Shown in pieces: positions 8,847 to 42,958 of a stretch of 51,021 nt of DNA. Source of the stretch: Anaerolineaceae bacterium (GTDB lineage Bacteria > Chloroflexota > Anaerolineae > Anaerolineales > Anaerolineaceae). The stretch spans positions 1 to 51,021 of the forward strand of contig PABH01000023.1 in the NCBI GenBank assembly GCA_002702705.1. Reading direction: 5' to 3'. Position 1 is the first letter of the stretch. Each line of letters opens with the position of its first letter. Below the pieces are notes generated by a model that had not been told where the DNA came from, searched no databases, and was given only the letters and a program-made list of their open reading frames with translations. Position numbers and translations under genes: made by a program.

Positions 8847-9626
8847 ATGCAGGTTGATCTGAACTGTGACATGGGTGAGGGTTATGGCCGTTACCAGATT
8901 GGTAACGATGCAGAATTGATTTCTTTGGTGACCTCTGCCAATATTGCCTGTGGATTCCATGCCGGTGACCCGTTGGTGATGCAAAATACCATCCGGCTGG
9001 CGGTCAAAAATCAGGTGGCGGTTGGCGCTCATCCGGGTTATGCCGATTTACAAGGTTTTGGCAGGCGGGTTTTAGACCTGACGGCAGAAGAAATTGAGGT
9101 TATGATCACCTATCAAATTGGTGCACTGGCAGCCGTGGCCAAAGCCAACCAAACCGAAATGGTCCACGTGAAACCACACGGCGCTTTATACAATCAGGCA
9201 GCTGCAAACCGGACGATTGCTAAAGCCATCGCTACCGCCGTTTCCAACTTCAGTAAAAACCTGATATTGGTCGGGTTGGCCGGTTCCTGTTTGGTAGAAG
9301 CCGGGATGGAAGCCGGGCTGCGTGTGGCACAGGAAGGTTTTCCCGAGCGTGGATATAACCCGGACGGCAGCTTAATTTCCCGCAGCCAACCGGGCGCATT
9401 AATTCACGACCCGCAAGCCGCGGCCGAACAAGCCCTGCGCCTGGTGAGGGATGGCATTCGAGCAGAAATCAACGGCAGCAGCGGCAGCTTTTCAGTCGAT
9501 ACCCTCTGTATCCACGGAGACTCCCCAGGCGCGGTGTTGATTACCAGCCGAATCCGTCAGGTGCTGCAAGAGGCGGGAGTGCAGATAAGGTCGGGCATCA
9601 CGCCAAAACCGAGATTTTTGCGTTAA
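8847..9626 (+). CDS. pxpA: 5-oxoprolinase subunit A (PxpA, LamB/YcsF family)
   Basis: The 259-residue protein starts VDLNCDMGEGYGRYQIGND and has ANIACGFHAGDP, AVGAHPGYADLQGFGR and VHVKPHGALYN. These are the conserved metal- and substrate-binding strings of the LamB/YcsF family. It completes the PxpABC 5-oxoprolinase. RBS AAGAAAGGA lies just upstream. The last residues (PKPRFLR) and the stop codon are written by the start of a 96-bp intergenic repeat (9605-9700) that also occurs at 11047 and 11329. The natural 3' end was therefore probably replaced by repeat sequence without harming the fold. Confidence 0.94.
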   Translation: MQVDLNCDMGEGYGRYQIGNDAELISLVTSANIACGFHAGDPLVMQNTIRLAVKNQVAVGAHPGYADLQGFGRRVLDLTAEEIEVMITYQIGALAAVAKANQTEMVHVKPHGALYNQAAANRTIAKAIATAVSNFSKNLILVGLAGSCLVEAGMEAGLRVAQEGFPERGYNPDGSLISRSQPGALIHDPQAAAEQALRLVRDGIRAEINGSSGSFSVDTLCIHGDSPGAVLITSRIRQVLQEAGVQIRSGITPKPRFLR

Positions 9627-9700
9627 GGCTCTGTTCTTAGCAAACTGTGTGCTCCTTCCATTTTGACACATCGCGAGAGTCCATCTCGGTTTTTGCTCTT
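9605..9700. repeat. 96-bp repeat R1, copy a (overlaps the end of pxpA)
   Basis: It begins AAAACCGAGATTTTTGCG and ends CATCTCGGTTTTTGCTCTT, so the termini (AAAACCGAGAT / ATCTCGGTTTT) form an 11-bp inverted repeat. Copies of the same length occur at 11047-11142 and 11329-11424, and a divergent one at 28882-28978. It may act as a bidirectional terminator hairpin after pxpA. Confidence 0.8.
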
Positions 9701-10317: not shown

Positions 10318-10905
10318 TTATCCGGTGATCAATCGTGTTCCGCAAGCCTGACAGAACAAAGCAGTTGAAGTGTATTTCGACTCACACTTTGGGCAAACTC
10401 TTGGTAAAACAACAGGCAATACACCACCGCAGGCAAAACAATGTTCTTCTTCGTCGAGGTTTGCTGTTCCACAGAATTCACAGACCTTCGGGTTTTTTGG
10501 TGCGTTCTTCTCGCCAGCCAGCGTTAAGGTCAGCGAACAGATATCATTAATAACATCCCAAATCTGAGGGGTAATGTTTTCTTTTTGTAATTCTCCGAAA
10601 ACTTCCGGAAGTAACGCTAATAAGGAGAGTTTGTTTCCGCTGGCTGCCTGAGTTAATAAATCCCCGGCATCGGAAGCACGATCCAGCCAATCCCGATCCC
10701 GACTCATGGTCACCAATACCCCGCCATCCGTATCGGTGATATGGACTGTAGCCGGTGTGCCGTGTTTACTGCCAATCTGCACCAGAGAAGAAACCCCATT
10801 GTGGGTAATGCTGGTTCGTTTATGACGTTCGTTAAATTGCGCGGCAAGTTGGTCTGCCAAAGCGGCAGCGTTTATTTTTCCATGAAACATACGTTGTCTG
10901 CCCAT
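10318..10905 (-). CDS. Protein with C-terminal double zinc ribbon; N-terminal domain unknown
   Basis: The protein is 195 aa from the ATG at 10905, which has AAAAGGA 8 nt upstream; an in-frame Met at 10926 is less well placed. The C-terminal 55 residues hold two zinc ribbons: CEFCG...CFACG and CPKCES...CQACG. The first 130 residues form a domain I do not recognise (motif QIGSKHGTPATVHITDTDGGVLVTMSRDRDWLDRA). Such ribbon proteins usually serve as adaptors or nucleic-acid binders. It is convergent with the cupin gene (20-bp gap). Upstream lies the repeat mosaic at 10978-11640. Confidence 0.75.
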   Translation of the reverse strand: MGRQRMFHGKINAAALADQLAAQFNERHKRTSITHNGVSSLVQIGSKHGTPATVHITDTDGGVLVTMSRDRDWLDRASDAGDLLTQAASGNKLSLLALLPEVFGELQKENITPQIWDVINDICSLTLTLAGEKNAPKNPKVCEFCGTANLDEEEHCFACGGVLPVVLPRVCPKCESKYTSTALFCQACGTRLITG

Positions 10906-32353: not shown

Positions 32354-32369
32354 TGTTTCACGTGAAACA
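32354..32369. promoter_or_regulatory. parS-like ParB binding site, perfect 16-bp palindrome
   Basis: TGTTTCACGTGAAACA matches the conserved bacterial parS consensus (TGTTNCACGTGAAACA) at every position, and the palindrome extends to 20 bp (32352-32371). It lies between sdpI and the ABC ATPase gene, about 8 kb from the DnaA-box arrays. ParB spreads from such sites near the origin to segregate chromosomes. Confidence 0.85.
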
Positions 32370-32401
32370 TTCTCTACATTTCCATCCTTTAACACACACT
32401 C

Positions 32402-33049
32402 TTAAGCGGTTGGATGAATTTTTTGATAACGAAAATAAGAATAAACAATCGTAACAACCGATGTAAATAACAAAGGCGCGACTAATAACCAGATATTAAA
32501 CTGAGGAAGGACAATGCCCACAAATGCAATTAAACCGCTTATTTTAAATAACAGTCCTCCCAAACGATGGGTATCATTCCAAACCTGTTCATCCTGTAAT
32601 GTCCAGGGTGTCCGGATGCCAATAAAATAATTTGATTTTGCTTTGGCTACCAATACGCCAATATAAAACACCAAACCACCAAAAGCGGGAACCAAATAGG
32701 TTTGAAGATCAAAAGTTTTTCCTAGGTTCCAAAGAAGGGTTAATACTTGAAGATAGGCCAGAAAGAAACTAAAGAACAAAACAAACCCGTTATATTCATT
32801 ACGGAATTTCGCAATATTTGCTTTTCGTGGATCAATGGAAGGAATCAGGACCATCATTAACGTTAAGCCAATAATTATGATAGGGAGTAACCAAATCCCA
32901 ATAAAATGTGAACCATAACCATCCACCTGTCCATCTGCACCCCAGTGAACCGCCATTTGGTCTGGCATTTGGGGTTCTAGTACCAAACCCAAACCCAGCA
33001 CGGCAAGTCCCAATACGATCGCTATTATCATGGTGATTTTTGAATTCAT
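32402..33049 (-). CDS. SdpI family membrane protein (DUF1648-containing)
   Basis: A 215-residue protein with about six membrane helices. VLGLGLVLEPQMPDQMAVHWGADGQVDGYGSH is the DUF1648 block (WGxDGxxDxY). NYFIGIRTPWTLQDEQVWNDTHRLGG is the signature loop of the SdpI/YhfL group. In Bacillus, SdpI both confers immunity to the SdpC toxin and signals its presence to the repressor SdpR. Here a GntR repressor gene precedes it, and an exporter and YhfC follow on the same strand, so an immunity/detoxification role is an attractive inference. No toxin gene is seen nearby. Confidence 0.9.
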   Translation of the reverse strand: MNSKITMIIAIVLGLAVLGLGLVLEPQMPDQMAVHWGADGQVDGYGSHFIGIWLLPIIIIGLTLMMVLIPSIDPRKANIAKFRNEYNGFVLFFSFFLAYLQVLTLLWNLGKTFDLQTYLVPAFGGLVFYIGVLVAKAKSNYFIGIRTPWTLQDEQVWNDTHRLGGLLFKISGLIAFVGIVLPQFNIWLLVAPLLFTSVVTIVYSYFRYQKIHPTA

Positions 33050-33066
33050 CTTCTCTTCCTTATTTA

Positions 33067-33082
33067 TGTTTCACGTGAAACG
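33067..33082. promoter_or_regulatory. Second parS-like site, 15 of 16 bases
   Basis: TGTTTCACGTGAAACG differs from the perfect site at 32354 only in the last base. It lies 17 bp upstream of the sdpI start. Two sites 713 bp apart favour a real ParB loading region over chance. Confidence 0.75.
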
Positions 33083-38478: not shown

Positions 38479-38760
38479 AACCACTTCCTGTTGGAACTTG
38501 AACTCAGATAAACTTTCCCCACCAACCCTGGAATACTAGAAGAACAAAAATGTGCATGAACAAATCCTCCTCAAGCGGGTATAATTAAATTCAACAAAAC
38601 TGAGAAGTTTGGGGTATGGTGGTCAGTAGAACAAACCTGAATTTCCACCCCGGGCATACCTGATCCATGCAGCATTGTGCTTCGTTAACAACTTCAAAAA
38701 TCAGTTTAACTTCAAAATTTTCCTTGTCAAGCAAAAAAAGGAACGAACCTGGGAGTGTGT

Positions 38761-39396
38761 ATGTATATAACGATTGAAGGTGTAATTGGCGTCGGAAAAA
38801 CAACATTAGCGCGTTTATTACAACCATCATTTCAGGCAAATATATTAATGGAAGTATTTGAAGAAAACCCTTTCCTGAGTAATTTTTATGCTGATCGGGC
38901 ATCATATGCCTTTCAAACCCAAATGTTTTTTTTGTTATCGCGGTATAAACAACAAAACCAAAATGTACCAGCTTTGTTGAGTAATGGGAACCATTTATTG
39001 AGTGACTATTCTTTTGAAAAAGATGCCCTGTTTGCACGTATTAACCTGAATGGGGATGAACTGGATATGTACTATCGTTTACATGAGGCGTTGGCTGAAA
39101 AAATCCCCTCACCGGATTTGTTTGTCTACTTACGGGCCGATACAAAAACGTTAATGCAGCGAATCGCTATGCGGGATCGACCCTATGAACGTGCCATGGA
39201 AAGAGATTATATTCAACAGCTTAACCAGGCATATGATGACTTTTTTACCCATCCAACCTTTACTACACCGGTATTGACCATTGACAGCAATAACCTGGAT
39301 TTTGTCCAAAATCCAGACGATCTCGCATTTATTGAAAATAGAATCCGTCAAACCCTGCAACTGCCTCCATTCCAACCGGAATTGCCGATGGAATAA
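38761..39396 (+). CDS. Deoxynucleoside kinase (Bacillus dGK-like)
   Basis: The product is 211 aa from the ATG at 38761, which has GGGAG 5 nt upstream; a GTG at 38755 is in frame. P-loop EGVIGVGKTT lies at residues 6-15. The nucleoside-binding part has MEVFEENPFLSNFYADRASYAFQTQMFFLLSRY, and LLSDYSFEKDALFARI replaces the DRS motif, as in Bacillus deoxyguanosine kinase. The lid RIAMRDRPYERAMERDYIQQLNQAY supplies Arg residues. It phosphorylates purine deoxynucleosides to dNMPs for dNTP salvage. A second kinase of the other subtype is at 41316-41978, making a complementary pair around the putative origin. Confidence 0.9.
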   Translation: MYITIEGVIGVGKTTLARLLQPSFQANILMEVFEENPFLSNFYADRASYAFQTQMFFLLSRYKQQNQNVPALLSNGNHLLSDYSFEKDALFARINLNGDELDMYYRLHEALAEKIPSPDLFVYLRADTKTLMQRIAMRDRPYERAMERDYIQQLNQAYDDFFTHPTFTTPVLTIDSNNLDFVQNPDDLAFIENRIRQTLQLPPFQPELPME

Positions 39397-39458
39397 GGGA
39401 AAAGAGCGGGATGATTGACCTCTTTCATCCCGTTTATAAAAAGAAAGGACACAGATTT

Positions 39459-40475
39459 ATGCGAATTACCCGCGATACCCTTCTGAAGGCTGCGAAAACC
39501 TATGTCATGCAACAAACCATGCGTGATCGCCATGTTATCTGTGTCTATCTAACTGGATCACTTATTGATGATCTTCCCTTACTTGGCGGCACAGCAGATA
39601 TTGACCTGGTTTTTGTACATGATGACACCCCGCCCGCAGCGCGAGAAATTGTCCGCTTAACCCCTACCGTGCACCTCGATCTGGCACATCATGACCAGAC
39701 GATTTACAAAGAACCAAAAAAATTACGGCTCGATCCCTGGGTAGGTTCCTATCTGATTAAAGATCCTATTGTTTTATATGGAACCCAACATTGGTTTGAA
39801 TACGTCCAGGCCATTGTCGCCTCACAATTTTCTCACCCCGAAAATGTCTACCAGCGTGCGTTCACATTGGTAGAAAAAGCACGGCAAACCTGGCTGGACT
39901 ACCAGCTCAACCCACAAGAAGCAGATATCCAACATATTTGGGCTTATTTAAAAGCATTGGAAGAAGCTTCAAACGCACTGGTTATCTTAAATGATCCGCC
40001 GTTAACGGAGCGCCGGTTTATGTTAGATTTTCCGGAAAAGGTAACAGCCTTGGGTTACCCGGAGATGGCAGCCAGCTTAATCAATCTGTTTATTCCCAAC
40101 CAGGAAATATTAAATGAAATTTCTGGTTTGATGAAGACCTGGAGCCAAGATTTAACAAAAACGGAAGATGAAAAAGATTTTCCGGTGGAACTCCACCCAC
40201 ACCGGCTAAATTACTACACCAGTGCAGTAGAAGCACTTAGTATGGACCACCCAGCAGCTGCGATGTGGATTTTATTCCGTACCTGGACTCGTTACGCCTT
40301 ATATTTTAAAGATTCACCGGAAAAGACCGAAAATTGGTTTTCTGCATTTCGTGATGCCTTATTTTTAGAGGAACATTTTAAGCAAAGGTTAGACGAATTG
40401 GACCTCTATTTAGACAAAACAGAAGAAATTATAGAAAACTGGGGAAAAACCAATGGGATCAACTTTTTAGCCTGA
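39459..40475 (+). CDS. Nucleotidyltransferase-fold protein
   Basis: The protein is 338 aa from the ATG at 39459 (GAAAGGA upstream); an in-frame Met at 39411 has no ribosome site. The N-terminal domain has the pol-beta nucleotidyltransferase signature VYLTGSLIDDLPLLGGTADIDLVFVHD, where DIDLV gives the metal-binding Asp pair. VHLDLAHHDQTIY supplies the third acid. The rest is alpha-helical, with LSMDHPAAAMWILFRTW like a substrate-binding helical bundle of aminoglycoside-type transferases. Function is unclear: adenylylation of a small molecule or protein is possible. It follows the kinase gene by 62 bp and ends just before the first DnaA-box array. Confidence 0.75.
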   Translation: MRITRDTLLKAAKTYVMQQTMRDRHVICVYLTGSLIDDLPLLGGTADIDLVFVHDDTPPAAREIVRLTPTVHLDLAHHDQTIYKEPKKLRLDPWVGSYLIKDPIVLYGTQHWFEYVQAIVASQFSHPENVYQRAFTLVEKARQTWLDYQLNPQEADIQHIWAYLKALEEASNALVILNDPPLTERRFMLDFPEKVTALGYPEMAASLINLFIPNQEILNEISGLMKTWSQDLTKTEDEKDFPVELHPHRLNYYTSAVEALSMDHPAAAMWILFRTWTRYALYFKDSPEKTENWFSAFRDALFLEEHFKQRLDELDLYLDKTEEIIENWGKTNGINFLA

Positions 40476-40487
40476 TTTGGTTTTTTC

Positions 40488-40880
40488 TGTGGATAACTTG
40501 TCTAAAACTGTGGATAACTTGATTCGAATGTGGATAAGTCATAAAAAATTCATATATATTAACAAAAGGAAACCCCTATATATAGGGGTTTCCTTTTGTA
40601 CTCTTACAAATATGGATTTTTTTGTTTTTTGTGGAAACCCTGTGGAAAAGTATTGGTTAAAAACTAACAACATATCCACACATACCCGTGGAGAAAAAAG
40701 GAGGGAAATCACCCTATATACAGAAGTCAATAAAAAAAAGGCCTGTATAAGGTGTAAAAAACAAAAAAAATTTGTGTTATCCACTTATCCACAGGCCCTA
40801 CTACAACTACGACTCATTAAACAATTAAAACTAATTGAATAAAGGTGTGGAGAAAATTCGCTGTGCCGTCTTGTGGAAAA
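40488..40880. promoter_or_regulatory. DnaA-box array 1
   Basis: Exact TGTGGATAA at 40488, 40509 and 40529 (21- and 20-bp steps, same strand). An exact inverse TTATCCACA at 40785-40793 overlaps a near-match at 40777. Near-matches lie at 40641 and 40872 (TGTGGAAAA) and 40672 (ATATCCACA). The array fills the space between the nucleotidyltransferase and spoVS genes; an open frame here is simply the repeats read through. Confidence 0.85.
40562..40599. repeat. Perfect 38-bp palindrome within the first DnaA-box array
   Basis: ACAAAAGGAAACCCCTATA is followed directly by its exact reverse complement TATAGGGGTTTCCTTTTGT, with no loop; the centre is TATATATA. It lies 25 bp after the three phased DnaA boxes. 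It could be a terminator for the upstream gene, a cruciform or a protein site. Confidence 0.85.
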
Positions 40881-40910
40881 AACCTATAAGTTGTTCGTAC
40901 AATTGCAAAC

Positions 40911-40939
40911 TTGTTTTTTACCCCCAATTCTTGTACAAT
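40911..40939 (+). promoter_or_regulatory. Candidate spoVS promoter
   Basis: -35 TTGTTT (40911-40916), 17-nt spacer, -10 TACAAT (40934-40939), 97 bp before the spoVS ATG. The AT-rich leader ends with AAGGAGAG 6 nt before the start codon. Confidence 0.45.
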
Positions 40940-41036
40940 TTGTTAAGATTACTAGTAAATTTATTGATAATCTATAAATATCTGTTTGCTTATCATTGAT
41001 CGTCAAGTTAGAAAGGGAAAAACAAGGAGAGCATTC

Positions 41037-41297
41037 ATGGACATCATTAAAGTAAAAGCAAACTCGCGTACTGCTGCTGTAGCAGGCGCCATTGCCGGTG
41101 TTGTTCGGGAACATAACCGGGCTGAAGTGCAAGCTATTGGTGCTGGCGCCATTAACCAAGCAGTCAAGGCATTGGTATTAGCCAGAGGTTATCTCGCTGA
41201 AGATGGTATTTCAGTGGTGTGTTTACCTGAATTTGTGGATGTTGATATTGACGGGAAGATTAGAACTGCTATAAAACTGGTTGTAGAACCACGCTAA
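41037..41297 (+). CDS. spoVS: Stage V sporulation protein S (SpoVS)
   Basis: The 86-residue protein matches SpoVS along its length: IKVKANSRTAAVAGAIAGVVRE, QAIGAGAINQAVKALVLARGYLA, LPEFVDVDIDGKIRTAIKLVVEPR. The chosen ATG has AAGGAGAG 6 nt upstream; a longer frame begins at 40986 without one. SpoVS is an Alba-like nucleic-acid-binding fold needed for spore coat assembly in Bacillus, yet it is conserved in many non-sporulating Chloroflexota, Deinococcus-Thermus and others. It sits between two DnaA-box arrays, so a role in DNA organisation or origin-linked regulation is plausible. It is convergent with the kinase gene (18-bp gap). Confidence 0.97.
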   Translation: MDIIKVKANSRTAAVAGAIAGVVREHNRAEVQAIGAGAINQAVKALVLARGYLAEDGISVVCLPEFVDVDIDGKIRTAIKLVVEPR

Positions 41298-41315
41298 ATT
41301 TTTCCTATTGAAGTA

Positions 41316-41978
41316 TTAATCGGTAGCTTGAATCACTTCATCCGGATTGAATATCACTTCGTCTTTTCCGGTTAGTTTTTCTTGCACCTTTTTTAAGATT
41401 AAATCCAAATGGCGGGGATGTTTTACGTAATCCAGGTCATCTGCTGGGACAGTTAAGACCGGACAAAAAGTGAAATTGGTGATCCAGTTTTCATATAAAC
41501 CATTTAACTGGGCCAGGTATTCCGATGGAATGGTTTGTTCGTAATCACGGTTACGAATCTGAATTCGTCGATTGAGTGTATCCACTGTAGCGCGTAAGTA
41601 AATAACCAGATCTGGGGGCGTTAAAAATTCGGCCAGTGTTTGATAGAGAGCAAAATAGGTTTCATAATCGCGAGCGCTCATTTTTCCTTGCAAGAAAAGA
41701 TTGCGGGCAAAAATTTCGGCGTCCTCATAAATACTGCGATCTTGAATAACAGAGCCAGCGGTGTGCAGCAGATTTTGATGAATTTTTAAACGATGAGTTA
41801 AGAAAAACACCTGTGAATTAAAACTCCAGGCTTGCATATCTTCGTAAAAATCGGCCAAATAGGGGTTTTCCGTGACAGGTTCATAAAAAGGTTCCCAATC
41901 GAGATGCTGGCAAATTAATTTTACTAAGGTGGATTTCCCCACCCCGATATTTCCTGCTACAGCAATAAATTTTTTCAT
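41316..41978 (-). CDS. Deoxynucleoside kinase (Bacillus dAK/dCK-like)
   Basis: The product is 220 aa from the ATG at 41978, which has GGAGGG 5 nt upstream; an earlier in-frame Met at 42005 lacks it. P-loop AGNIGVGKSTL is at residues 7-17. EPVTENPYLADFYEDMQAWSFNSQVFFLTHRLK binds the nucleoside, QDRSIYEDAEIFARN is the DRS catalytic motif, and RIQIRNRDYEQTIPSEYLAQLN forms the lid. This is the deoxyadenosine/deoxycytidine kinase subtype, complementing the dGK-like kinase at 38761. Its upstream region is the second DnaA-box array, so its promoter lies within the putative origin. Confidence 0.93.
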   Translation of the reverse strand: MKKFIAVAGNIGVGKSTLVKLICQHLDWEPFYEPVTENPYLADFYEDMQAWSFNSQVFFLTHRLKIHQNLLHTAGSVIQDRSIYEDAEIFARNLFLQGKMSARDYETYFALYQTLAEFLTPPDLVIYLRATVDTLNRRIQIRNRDYEQTIPSEYLAQLNGLYENWITNFTFCPVLTVPADDLDYVKHPRHLDLILKKVQEKLTGKDEVIFNPDEVIQATD

Positions 41979-42208
41979 GGTTACCCTCCATACGGTTTCA
42001 ATCACTGGCTCGGATTATATCATAGGGCCATTGGTCAAGGGGGCTATCAGGTTGGAAGAATTCTGATTTTTTTGAATACTGGGTTAGCTGTTTAGTGTTA
42101 TTGTGAGACATTTGAAGGATGCCAAGTAAATTGCTCACTTTAGATTGTCCATAACAATGCCCATATAGATTTGTTTGTTTAATATAACCCTGCTTTTTTA
42201 CCGCTAAT

Positions 42209-42695
42209 TGTGGATAACTTGTTCTAAACGGTGGATAACTGTGGAAAATCAAGCCCAATTTGTGGATAAATCTTTGGATAAGCAGTGGAAAAAACTCGAT
42301 TCCATGTGGATTAAATCATAGATACTTGTTTTTTAGGGGAGAAAGTTAGAAAAAAGTTCTTGTTTAATGATCGATAAGTTTAAACTGTGGATAACTTCCG
42401 TTAAACTGTGGAAAAACGGATTGAATTGGGGATAAAAAACGAGTTATTTGCTCCAAAATGCAGATATTTGAGTAAATAAGCCCATCTTTTTTACAGCGAA
42501 GAAAAGTCAATATAGAGTTATTTACCAAAAAAATCGGAAAAATTGTGGATAACTGGTTCAAAACTGTGGATAAAACCTTTTAACTGTGGATAACTTTTAA
42601 GATTCAGTGGAAAAAATACTTTCATCTGTGGATTGTATTTTTTTTATAAAAAAATCTCTATTTTCTGTGGATAACTGCCAGTAAACTGTGGATAA
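42209..42695. promoter_or_regulatory. DnaA-box array 2 with internal AT-rich stretch
   Basis: Exact TGTGGATAA at 42209, 42261, 42386, 42544, 42565, 42585, 42666 and 42687, all in the same orientation. Near-matches lie at 42230, 42240, 42273, 42305, 42407 and 42427. Steps of 21 and 20 bp (42544-42565-42585) and 21 bp (42666-42687) repeat the spacing of array 1. A 31-bp AT-rich tract (42634-42664) between the last two groups is the best unwinding-element candidate. No gene is seen from 42006 to 42784. Confidence 0.87.
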
Positions 42696-42736
42696 CTTAG
42701 ATTAACTGTTGAAAATTTGTCCGAATTAAAACGAAA

Positions 42737-42761
42737 ATGGACAGGATTTTAGCCTGTCCAT
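42737..42761 (-). terminator. Terminator of the ferredoxin gene
   Basis: ATGGACAGG and CCTGTCCAT form a perfect 9-bp stem with a 7-nt loop, followed on the minus strand by TTTTCGTTTTAATT. It begins 24 bp after the ferredoxin stop and insulates the DnaA-box array from its transcription. Confidence 0.75.
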
Positions 42762-42784
42762 CCCAGTTCTGTTGAATTAATAGG

Positions 42785-42958
42785 TTATGCGGGAGAGATT
42801 GCTTCGTTCGGGCAAACGTCGACGCAAGAACCACAATCCTGACACAGATCAGCATCAATTACATAATAGCCATCGGCTTCAGAAATTGCGCCTTCCGGAC
42901 ATTCACCTTCACATGCGCCACAGAGTAAACATTCATCAGCATTAATTACGTATGCCAT
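42785..42958 (-). CDS. 2[4Fe-4S] ferredoxin
   Basis: A 57-residue clostridial-type ferredoxin read directly from the minus strand. It carries the two cluster motifs [13 protein letters not shown] and [13 protein letters not shown] (eight cysteines, CxxCxxCxxxCP twice). The two halves are clearly duplicated, each beginning with an IxAD segment. AAAGGA lies about 10 nt before the ATG. It carries low-potential electrons in the cytoplasm, typical of anaerobes, for example for radical SAM enzymes or pyruvate:ferredoxin oxidoreductase. It is a single-gene unit with its own terminator, adjacent to the putative origin. Confidence 0.96.

Follow-up and report, generated by a model that had tools for sequence, protein, structure and literature searches.

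The window, which is the whole 51,021-nucleotide stretch of DNA analysed here, is one entire 51-kb contig (C25) of a 74-contig, 5.89-Mb draft genome of an Anaerolineae (Chloroflexota) bacterium. It carries two deoxynucleoside kinase (dNK) genes, a conserved neighbour gene, spoVS, two arrays of DnaA boxes and two parS sites, which are listed here by position with the smaller elements of the first array, some of them named after the basal unwinding system (BUS) of Bacillus subtilis.

32354..32369, no strand: parS, exact consensus; motif search
33067..33082, no strand: parS, one mismatch; motif search
38755..39396, + strand: second deoxynucleoside kinase gene, on the opposite side of the putative origin; Pfam PF01712, E 3e-39
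39411..40475, + strand: conserved neighbour gene; no Pfam match, "NTase" being a working label only
40488..40537, + strand: DnaA-box triplet, three same-orientation exact boxes at 21 + 20 bp; box scan, the spacing recurring in relatives
40573..40618, no strand: palindrome pair A, two 16-mers (40573 and 40603) at a 30-bp interval; pair score 30.4, first box CCCCTATATATAGGGG, NrdR-box-like
40641..40680, no strand: two more one-mismatch DnaA boxes in the core, at 40641 and 40672; box scan
40709..40755, no strand: weak palindrome pair B, two 16-mers (40709 and 40740) at a 31-bp interval; score 27.0, rounded
40777..40793, - strand: inverted overlapping DnaA-box doublet TTATCCACTTATCCACA; box scan and box scoring
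40794-40797, + strand: GC spacer GGCC; BUS order as in the cited part of PMC8287927
40798-40815, + strand: putative DnaA-trio tract CTACTACAACTACGACTC; BUS order from the same part of PMC8287927
40816..40845, no strand: AT-rich stretch past the trios, candidate unwinding region; 70% AT in 40796-40845
41037..41297, + strand: spoVS; Pfam PF04232, E 3.6e-34
41316..41978, - strand: deoxynucleoside kinase (dNK); Pfam PF01712, E 1.9e-53
42209..42715, + strand: second DnaA-box array, 8 exact boxes, with several 21 + 20 triplets; box scan, trio tract not found

The initial annotation had reported 12 perfect DnaA boxes, in groups of 4 and 8 that flank spoVS and a dNK gene, and our box scan recovered all of their positions. 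The 4-box array consists of TGTGGATAA on the + strand at 40488, 40509 and 40529 and TTATCCACA on the + strand at 40785; the exact boxes of the 8-box array, all TGTGGATAA on the + strand, are at 42209, 42261, 42386, 42544, 42565, 42585, 42666 and 42687, and the window's 13th exact box lies far away, at 2667. Orientation within the arrays is mostly the same, and many boxes form triplets with a 21 + 20 bp spacing, roughly two turns of the helix. When up to one mismatch is tolerated, the window holds 49 box matches (shuffle mean 15.4, largest 25, 100 shuffles), 23 of them in the interval 40488-42695. Exact boxes number 103 in the 5.89-Mb genome, where the reversed pattern has 44 matches; at the genomic density of exact boxes, ~0.04 would be expected in the array interval, where 12 are observed. 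The window accordingly contains what is looked for at an oriC, a dense DnaA-box cluster beyond chance, and no exact-box cluster denser than the window arrays occurs among the 100 of 103 genome places listed. The next-densest clusters noted among those 100 of 103 places are two, one with four exact boxes in 72 bp (C71:30552-30623, L009 ~10552-10623), which resembles a repeat within coding sequence, and one with three exact boxes in nearly perfect 33-bp tandem repeats (C45:49580-49654, L010 ~9580-9654). The C71 coding sequence, whose C-terminal part seems reminiscent of the DnaA N-terminal domain, may be a mobile-element replication gene.

The anatomy of the 4-box array appears to be that of a complete and conserved origin, with a triplet, palindrome pairs, an inverted doublet, a GC spacer and DnaA-trios. 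At 40777-40815 we find tandem boxes, a GC-rich spacer and a trio repeat in the right order for a BUS. The trio tract at 40798-40815 reads CTA CTA CAA CTA CGA CTC, with three of six trios standard; a strict trio scan around each box found no long run owing to the non-standard trios, and the tract was then spotted by eye and tested in relatives. There, the inverted overlapping doublet, GC spacer and trio tract (e.g. CTACTATTA) usually lie ~205-275 bp past the triplet, with the distance smaller or larger in a few loci; in some loci the script took another box, the box before the trio tails being selected by box score alone. Trio tails average 2.63 of 6 standard trios over the 59 loci yielding a box (L210 and L261 among them are one genome), compared to 0.84 in random 40-mers, and at least 4 standard trios are present in 25% of the 59 loci as against 0.5% of random 40-mers.

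At up to 3 mismatches, the 21 + 20 triplet is found in 185 of 395 Anaerolineae genomes and is lacking in 210; it is also found in 111 of 300 genomes drawn from the phylum, partly the same Anaerolineae. The reversed triplet gave no matches among the rows listed for either set. Among loci collected by dNK similarity alone (the best 80), one layout recurs in many members of the Anaerolineaceae, Ornatilinea apprima (L020) and Anaerolinea thermolimosa (L031) among them: second dNK, neighbour gene, box triplet, spoVS, dNK. Boxes were missing at several spoVS-dNK loci, e.g. L024, L030 and L034. Thirty triplet loci that we fetched, at 1.6-3 kb each, divide into 11 with dnaA, 11 with the second dNK, neighbour gene or spoVS, and 8 with none of these. 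The dnaA-linked triplet is common in other families of the class; thus, judging from linkage rather than from a tree, the split between origin and dnaA probably arose along the line leading to Anaerolineaceae and a sister family.

In the window's own genome dnaA is on another contig (C16), where no DnaA-box cluster was found (7 matches at up to one mismatch in 20 kb, 6.8 expected), and we rejected an origin at dnaA because the cluster is absent there. An oriC is expected to have parS nearby, and a search of the whole genome for parS with up to one mismatch retrieved only two sites, those 8 kb from the array. These two sites (32354-33082) bracket an SdpI-family gene ~700 bp apart, likewise in several genomes of the genus; parS pair spacing in many other relatives is 30-120 bp. 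All 26 of 26 genomes searched have one to three parS sites each at up to one mismatch, the reversed control matching two of them (G011 and G061). The exact box-pair pattern is present in 14 of the 26, within ~3 kb of spoVS in 9, within 9 kb of parS in 4 and elsewhere in G039; its absence from the other 12 counts against reading the locus as an origin. We have also rejected spoVS as a fixed landmark, since G010, G091, G100 and G013 have the box pair within 9 kb of parS and spoVS elsewhere.

The window being a whole contig of a 74-contig draft, GC skew was read within it and in relatives. Within the window, third-codon-position GC skew of minus-strand genes is -0.069 on the left (15 ORFs) and +0.067 on the right (8 ORFs), with a side term of 0.068 (s.e. 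0.029) and a turn at the array; plain GC skew right of the arrays is still slightly negative, at -0.034. The same-genus contig G083:C12 has no clear turn in plain GC skew, and its third-codon side term is 0.018 (s.e. 0.011) for the whole contig and 0.042 (s.e. 0.015) for the last 150 kb, over which third-codon skew does turn. In G044, a single contig of 3.52 Mb, one origin plus one terminus fit 46 of 48 sampled 20-kb stretches; the skew switches from the stretch that starts at 304 kb to the one that starts at 324 kb, the triplet is at 326.6 kb, and dnaA, near which the record begins, is 325 kb from the switch. In G029 the fit extends to all 20 of 20 stretches sampled, and the skew switches from the stretch that starts at 641 kb to the one at 661 kb, which contains the cluster. 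The G042 switch lies 16-56 kb away from the triplet, one stretch being out of order.

The boxes, the modules and their conservation, the parS linkage and the skew switch in relatives can all be read directly from these genomes. The locus is very probably the chromosomal oriC of this bacterium, with a core mechanism that would run from triplet to doublet to trios. Points on the other side are the plain skew of the window and of G083:C12, the displaced switch of G042, the 210 of 395 genomes lacking the triplet, the spoVS-dNK loci lacking boxes and the window's own trio tract, with its three standard trios of six. The earlier suggestion of a probable oriC without adjoining dnaA is supported, by parS at 8 kb, a dnaA lacking a box cluster and the skew switch at or near the homologous cluster in the relatives sampled, and the contrary outcome named with it, a denser box cluster at dnaA or elsewhere together with a skew switch far off, was not seen, the dnaA of C16 having no cluster.

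Between the triplet and the doublet are palindromes with a C-run, an AT core and a G-run, usually paired. A pair at 30-32 bp scoring at least 27 occurs in 33 of 44 origin loci (L204 was left out as a copy of the window), compared to 6, 7, 17, 20, 11 and 11 of the 44 when six other spacing sets were tried and to a background of 0.0096 per 400 bp in 2.0 Mb of sampled sequence, an enrichment that is partly post hoc in that the palindrome matrix was written after the origin sites were seen. The other spacings guard against this, as does a reversed matrix (29 versus 1 at a score of 16 or more). Pairs are offset from the triplet by ~+44 to +47 (+35 in some), with a second pair at ~+171 to +185 in many loci. 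Pair A of the window is strong; the level of pair B is matched by four other pairs elsewhere in the window, and we have retained it as a feature because relatives carry a second pair near this offset.

The 13-base palindrome, used as the sole query, matched 67 of 395 genomes, with ~13 for the reversed control, and some genomes have many copies (G318). Among 30 loci fetched by palindrome alone, 14 have it ~0.3 kb upstream of dnaA; another 11 are triplet loci, and 5 are at neither. The window's own genome has two copies upstream of dnaA by score, and a third by eye. In dnaA-side loci such as L260, L265, L271 and L280, a strongly conserved element, ~TGGCTGAAACG then TGTTCTA, lies between palindrome and dnaA.

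NrdR is a dATP sensor, and the window core CTATATATAG fits the NrdR-box consensus acaCwAtATaTwGtgt. The operator form of NrdR, two palindromic boxes ~31 bp apart, is found at 33 of 44 origin loci and in window pair A; on the dnaA side, 13 of 15 copies are one clear site, not a pair. We put forward tentatively, and hold as somewhat on the doubtful side, that a dATP-sensing repressor (NrdR or a relative) acts inside the origin and upstream of dnaA across Anaerolineae, that the dNTP pool would gate initiation in this way, and that the element was kept by both after their separation. Just on the probable side, in our judgement, is that the palindromes are transcription terminators or operators of a regulator other than NrdR. 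The window palindrome, with A- and T-rich flanks and 19-nt arms, looks like a bidirectional terminator, and the single dnaA-side copies and the 5 of 30 palindrome loci at neither triplet nor dnaA also favour such an account. So does the whole-sequence scan: over 3.34 Mb, pairs at 30-32 bp are weakly enriched at best, with 58 as against 53 in two control sets together (~26 each). Nor did motif search find RNR or NrdR genes within the locus sequences examined, a point for the same account, so that the promoters defining such operators are absent from the comparison. Terminators, however, would leave unexplained the conserved AT centre, the 30-32 bp spacing of pairs in 33 of 44 origin loci, where the six other spacing sets reach 6 to 20, the near-fixed offsets from the triplet and the recurrence ~0.3 kb upstream of dnaA.

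Pairs elsewhere were considered as RNR operators and rejected; L178:15468 and L235:18093 are inside genes, and none of these genes is RNR. The pair at L177:271 precedes a gene that we take to be PadR-like, not RNR. Of the best 80 dNK loci, 59 were scored; a pair at the dNK promoter turned up in 3 of the 27 from Chloroflexota and in none of the 32 others. In other Chloroflexota, pairs lie 140-190 bp upstream of deoxynucleoside kinase genes at L050 9812, L053 9826 and L086 9860. One of the five loci at neither triplet nor dnaA, L259, has a palindrome pair ~31 bp apart at 1501-1550, upstream of genes that are presumably mraZ and rsmH, hinting that the regulator may reach cell-division genes too.

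The second array appears to be a genus-level feature. Six of the genus's 8 genomes carry it at this location (the window's own, G007, G055, G066, G083 and G089); it is missing from G039 and G076, and was found in none of the 12 longer non-genus loci having the first array (L020, L021, L022, L026, L028, L031, L110, L111, L112, L116, L117 and L120). The triplet module is repeated within it. The only trio-like repeat in 42001-42800, at 42778, is beyond the array, with none inside it, and its best palindrome pair scores only 26.3; on both counts the array is unsupported as an independent origin. The initial annotation had taken the bipartite arrays together as marking a probable oriC, and of this the two box clusters split by genes stand, whereas the complete conserved anatomy is in the 4-box array only. 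Its further remark that the flanked genes differ from those of known bipartite origins is borne out: spoVS and dNK lie between the arrays, and with dnaA on C16 and the window on C25 the clusters do not flank dnaA in the Bacillus/Helicobacter form. A true bipartite origin, in which both arrays are needed and DnaA at each would join them across spoVS and dNK, could draw on their like orientation, their common triplet module and the presence of the second array, at the position seen here, in 6 of the genus's 8 genomes; we consider it unlikely, because absence from G039, G076 and the 12 longer non-genus loci argues against a general need for the second array, in which, besides, no trio tract was found. 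The second array is more likely a DnaA reservoir or a helper in delivery than an initiation site. That both arrays are instead a DnaA-titration or regulatory site near parS, of the kind named datA or DARS, is very improbable, for although array 2 has extra boxes without an unwinding module, G044 and G029 have their skew switch at the homologous cluster, the 4-box core has doublet, spacer and trios, and a denser exact-box cluster was not seen in the 100 of 103 places listed.

For the origin as we read it, DnaA would first fill the presumably high-affinity triplet at 40488-40537 and then spread across weaker boxes to the inverted doublet at 40777-40793, from which a DnaA filament would extend onto the trio tract at 40798-40815. 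AT-rich DNA would then be opened, probably toward spoVS, as by the BUS in Bacillus. The 8-box array may store DnaA or aid its delivery. The core palindromes may bind a regulator, with NrdR or a protein like it as the likeliest candidate, that would couple firing to the dNTP pool, and the related site upstream of dnaA could bring the same coupling to dnaA expression.

This analysis places and dissects an origin in a large, mostly uncultured class. It also brings a caution that such chromosomes should not be started at dnaA, the skew of G044 turning ~325 kb from its dnaA-proximal record start. The triplet plus unwinding module may serve as an origin signature usable on fragmented genomes. Should the palindrome pairs be NrdR boxes, nucleotide supply would be tied directly, through DNA sites, to the replication decision, at an origin flanked here by two deoxynucleoside kinase genes. 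No earlier description of a Chloroflexi or Anaerolineae origin like this one is evident among the open-licence papers listed on the subject, nor are NrdR boxes at an origin among those listed on NrdR with dnaA, replication initiation or oriC.

Among known systems, the closest to the core is the Bacillus subtilis BUS, which in the cited part of PMC8287927 comprises two adjacent DnaA boxes, a short GC-rich spacer and trinucleotide repeats with the consensus 3'-GAT-5' (CTA on the other strand). The window module likewise has adjacent boxes, a GC-rich spacer and trios, as far as that part of PMC8287927 describes them, but it lies away from dnaA, its boxes overlap by one base, and a phased box triplet and palindrome pairs come before it. 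The origin would seem to be a known unwinding system in a new arrangement, and the suggestion that the architecture is new therefore holds for the arrangement and not for the unwinding system. As for bipartite form, the Bacillus origin, around dnaA, has gene-split clusters with the unwinding module in only one, as here. The Helicobacter pylori origin, bipartite in the cited part of PMC8235120, is similar in these respects. Compared to both, the window has spoVS and dNK between its clusters, dnaA on another contig, and a second cluster confined, in the loci examined, to a single genus.

NrdR operators, according to the cited parts of PMC2892513 and PMC9110341, have two boxes ~31-32 bp apart (PMC2892513) with conserved GC pairs at 9/18 and 40/49 (PMC9110341); the window resembles what these parts describe in its two AT-core palindromes ~31 bp apart and in the C and G nine positions apart around the core of its first box. 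Here, however, the sites are inside oriC and upstream of dnaA, not at RNR genes, the C and G runs are longer, and the dnaA-side copies are mostly single. Finally, Escherichia coli and many cyanobacteria have origins unlinked to dnaA, and in this separation of oriC from dnaA the window is like them; in contrast to those cases, relatives in the class retain the triplet beside dnaA (11 of 30 fetched loci), so that the separation looks recent within the class.
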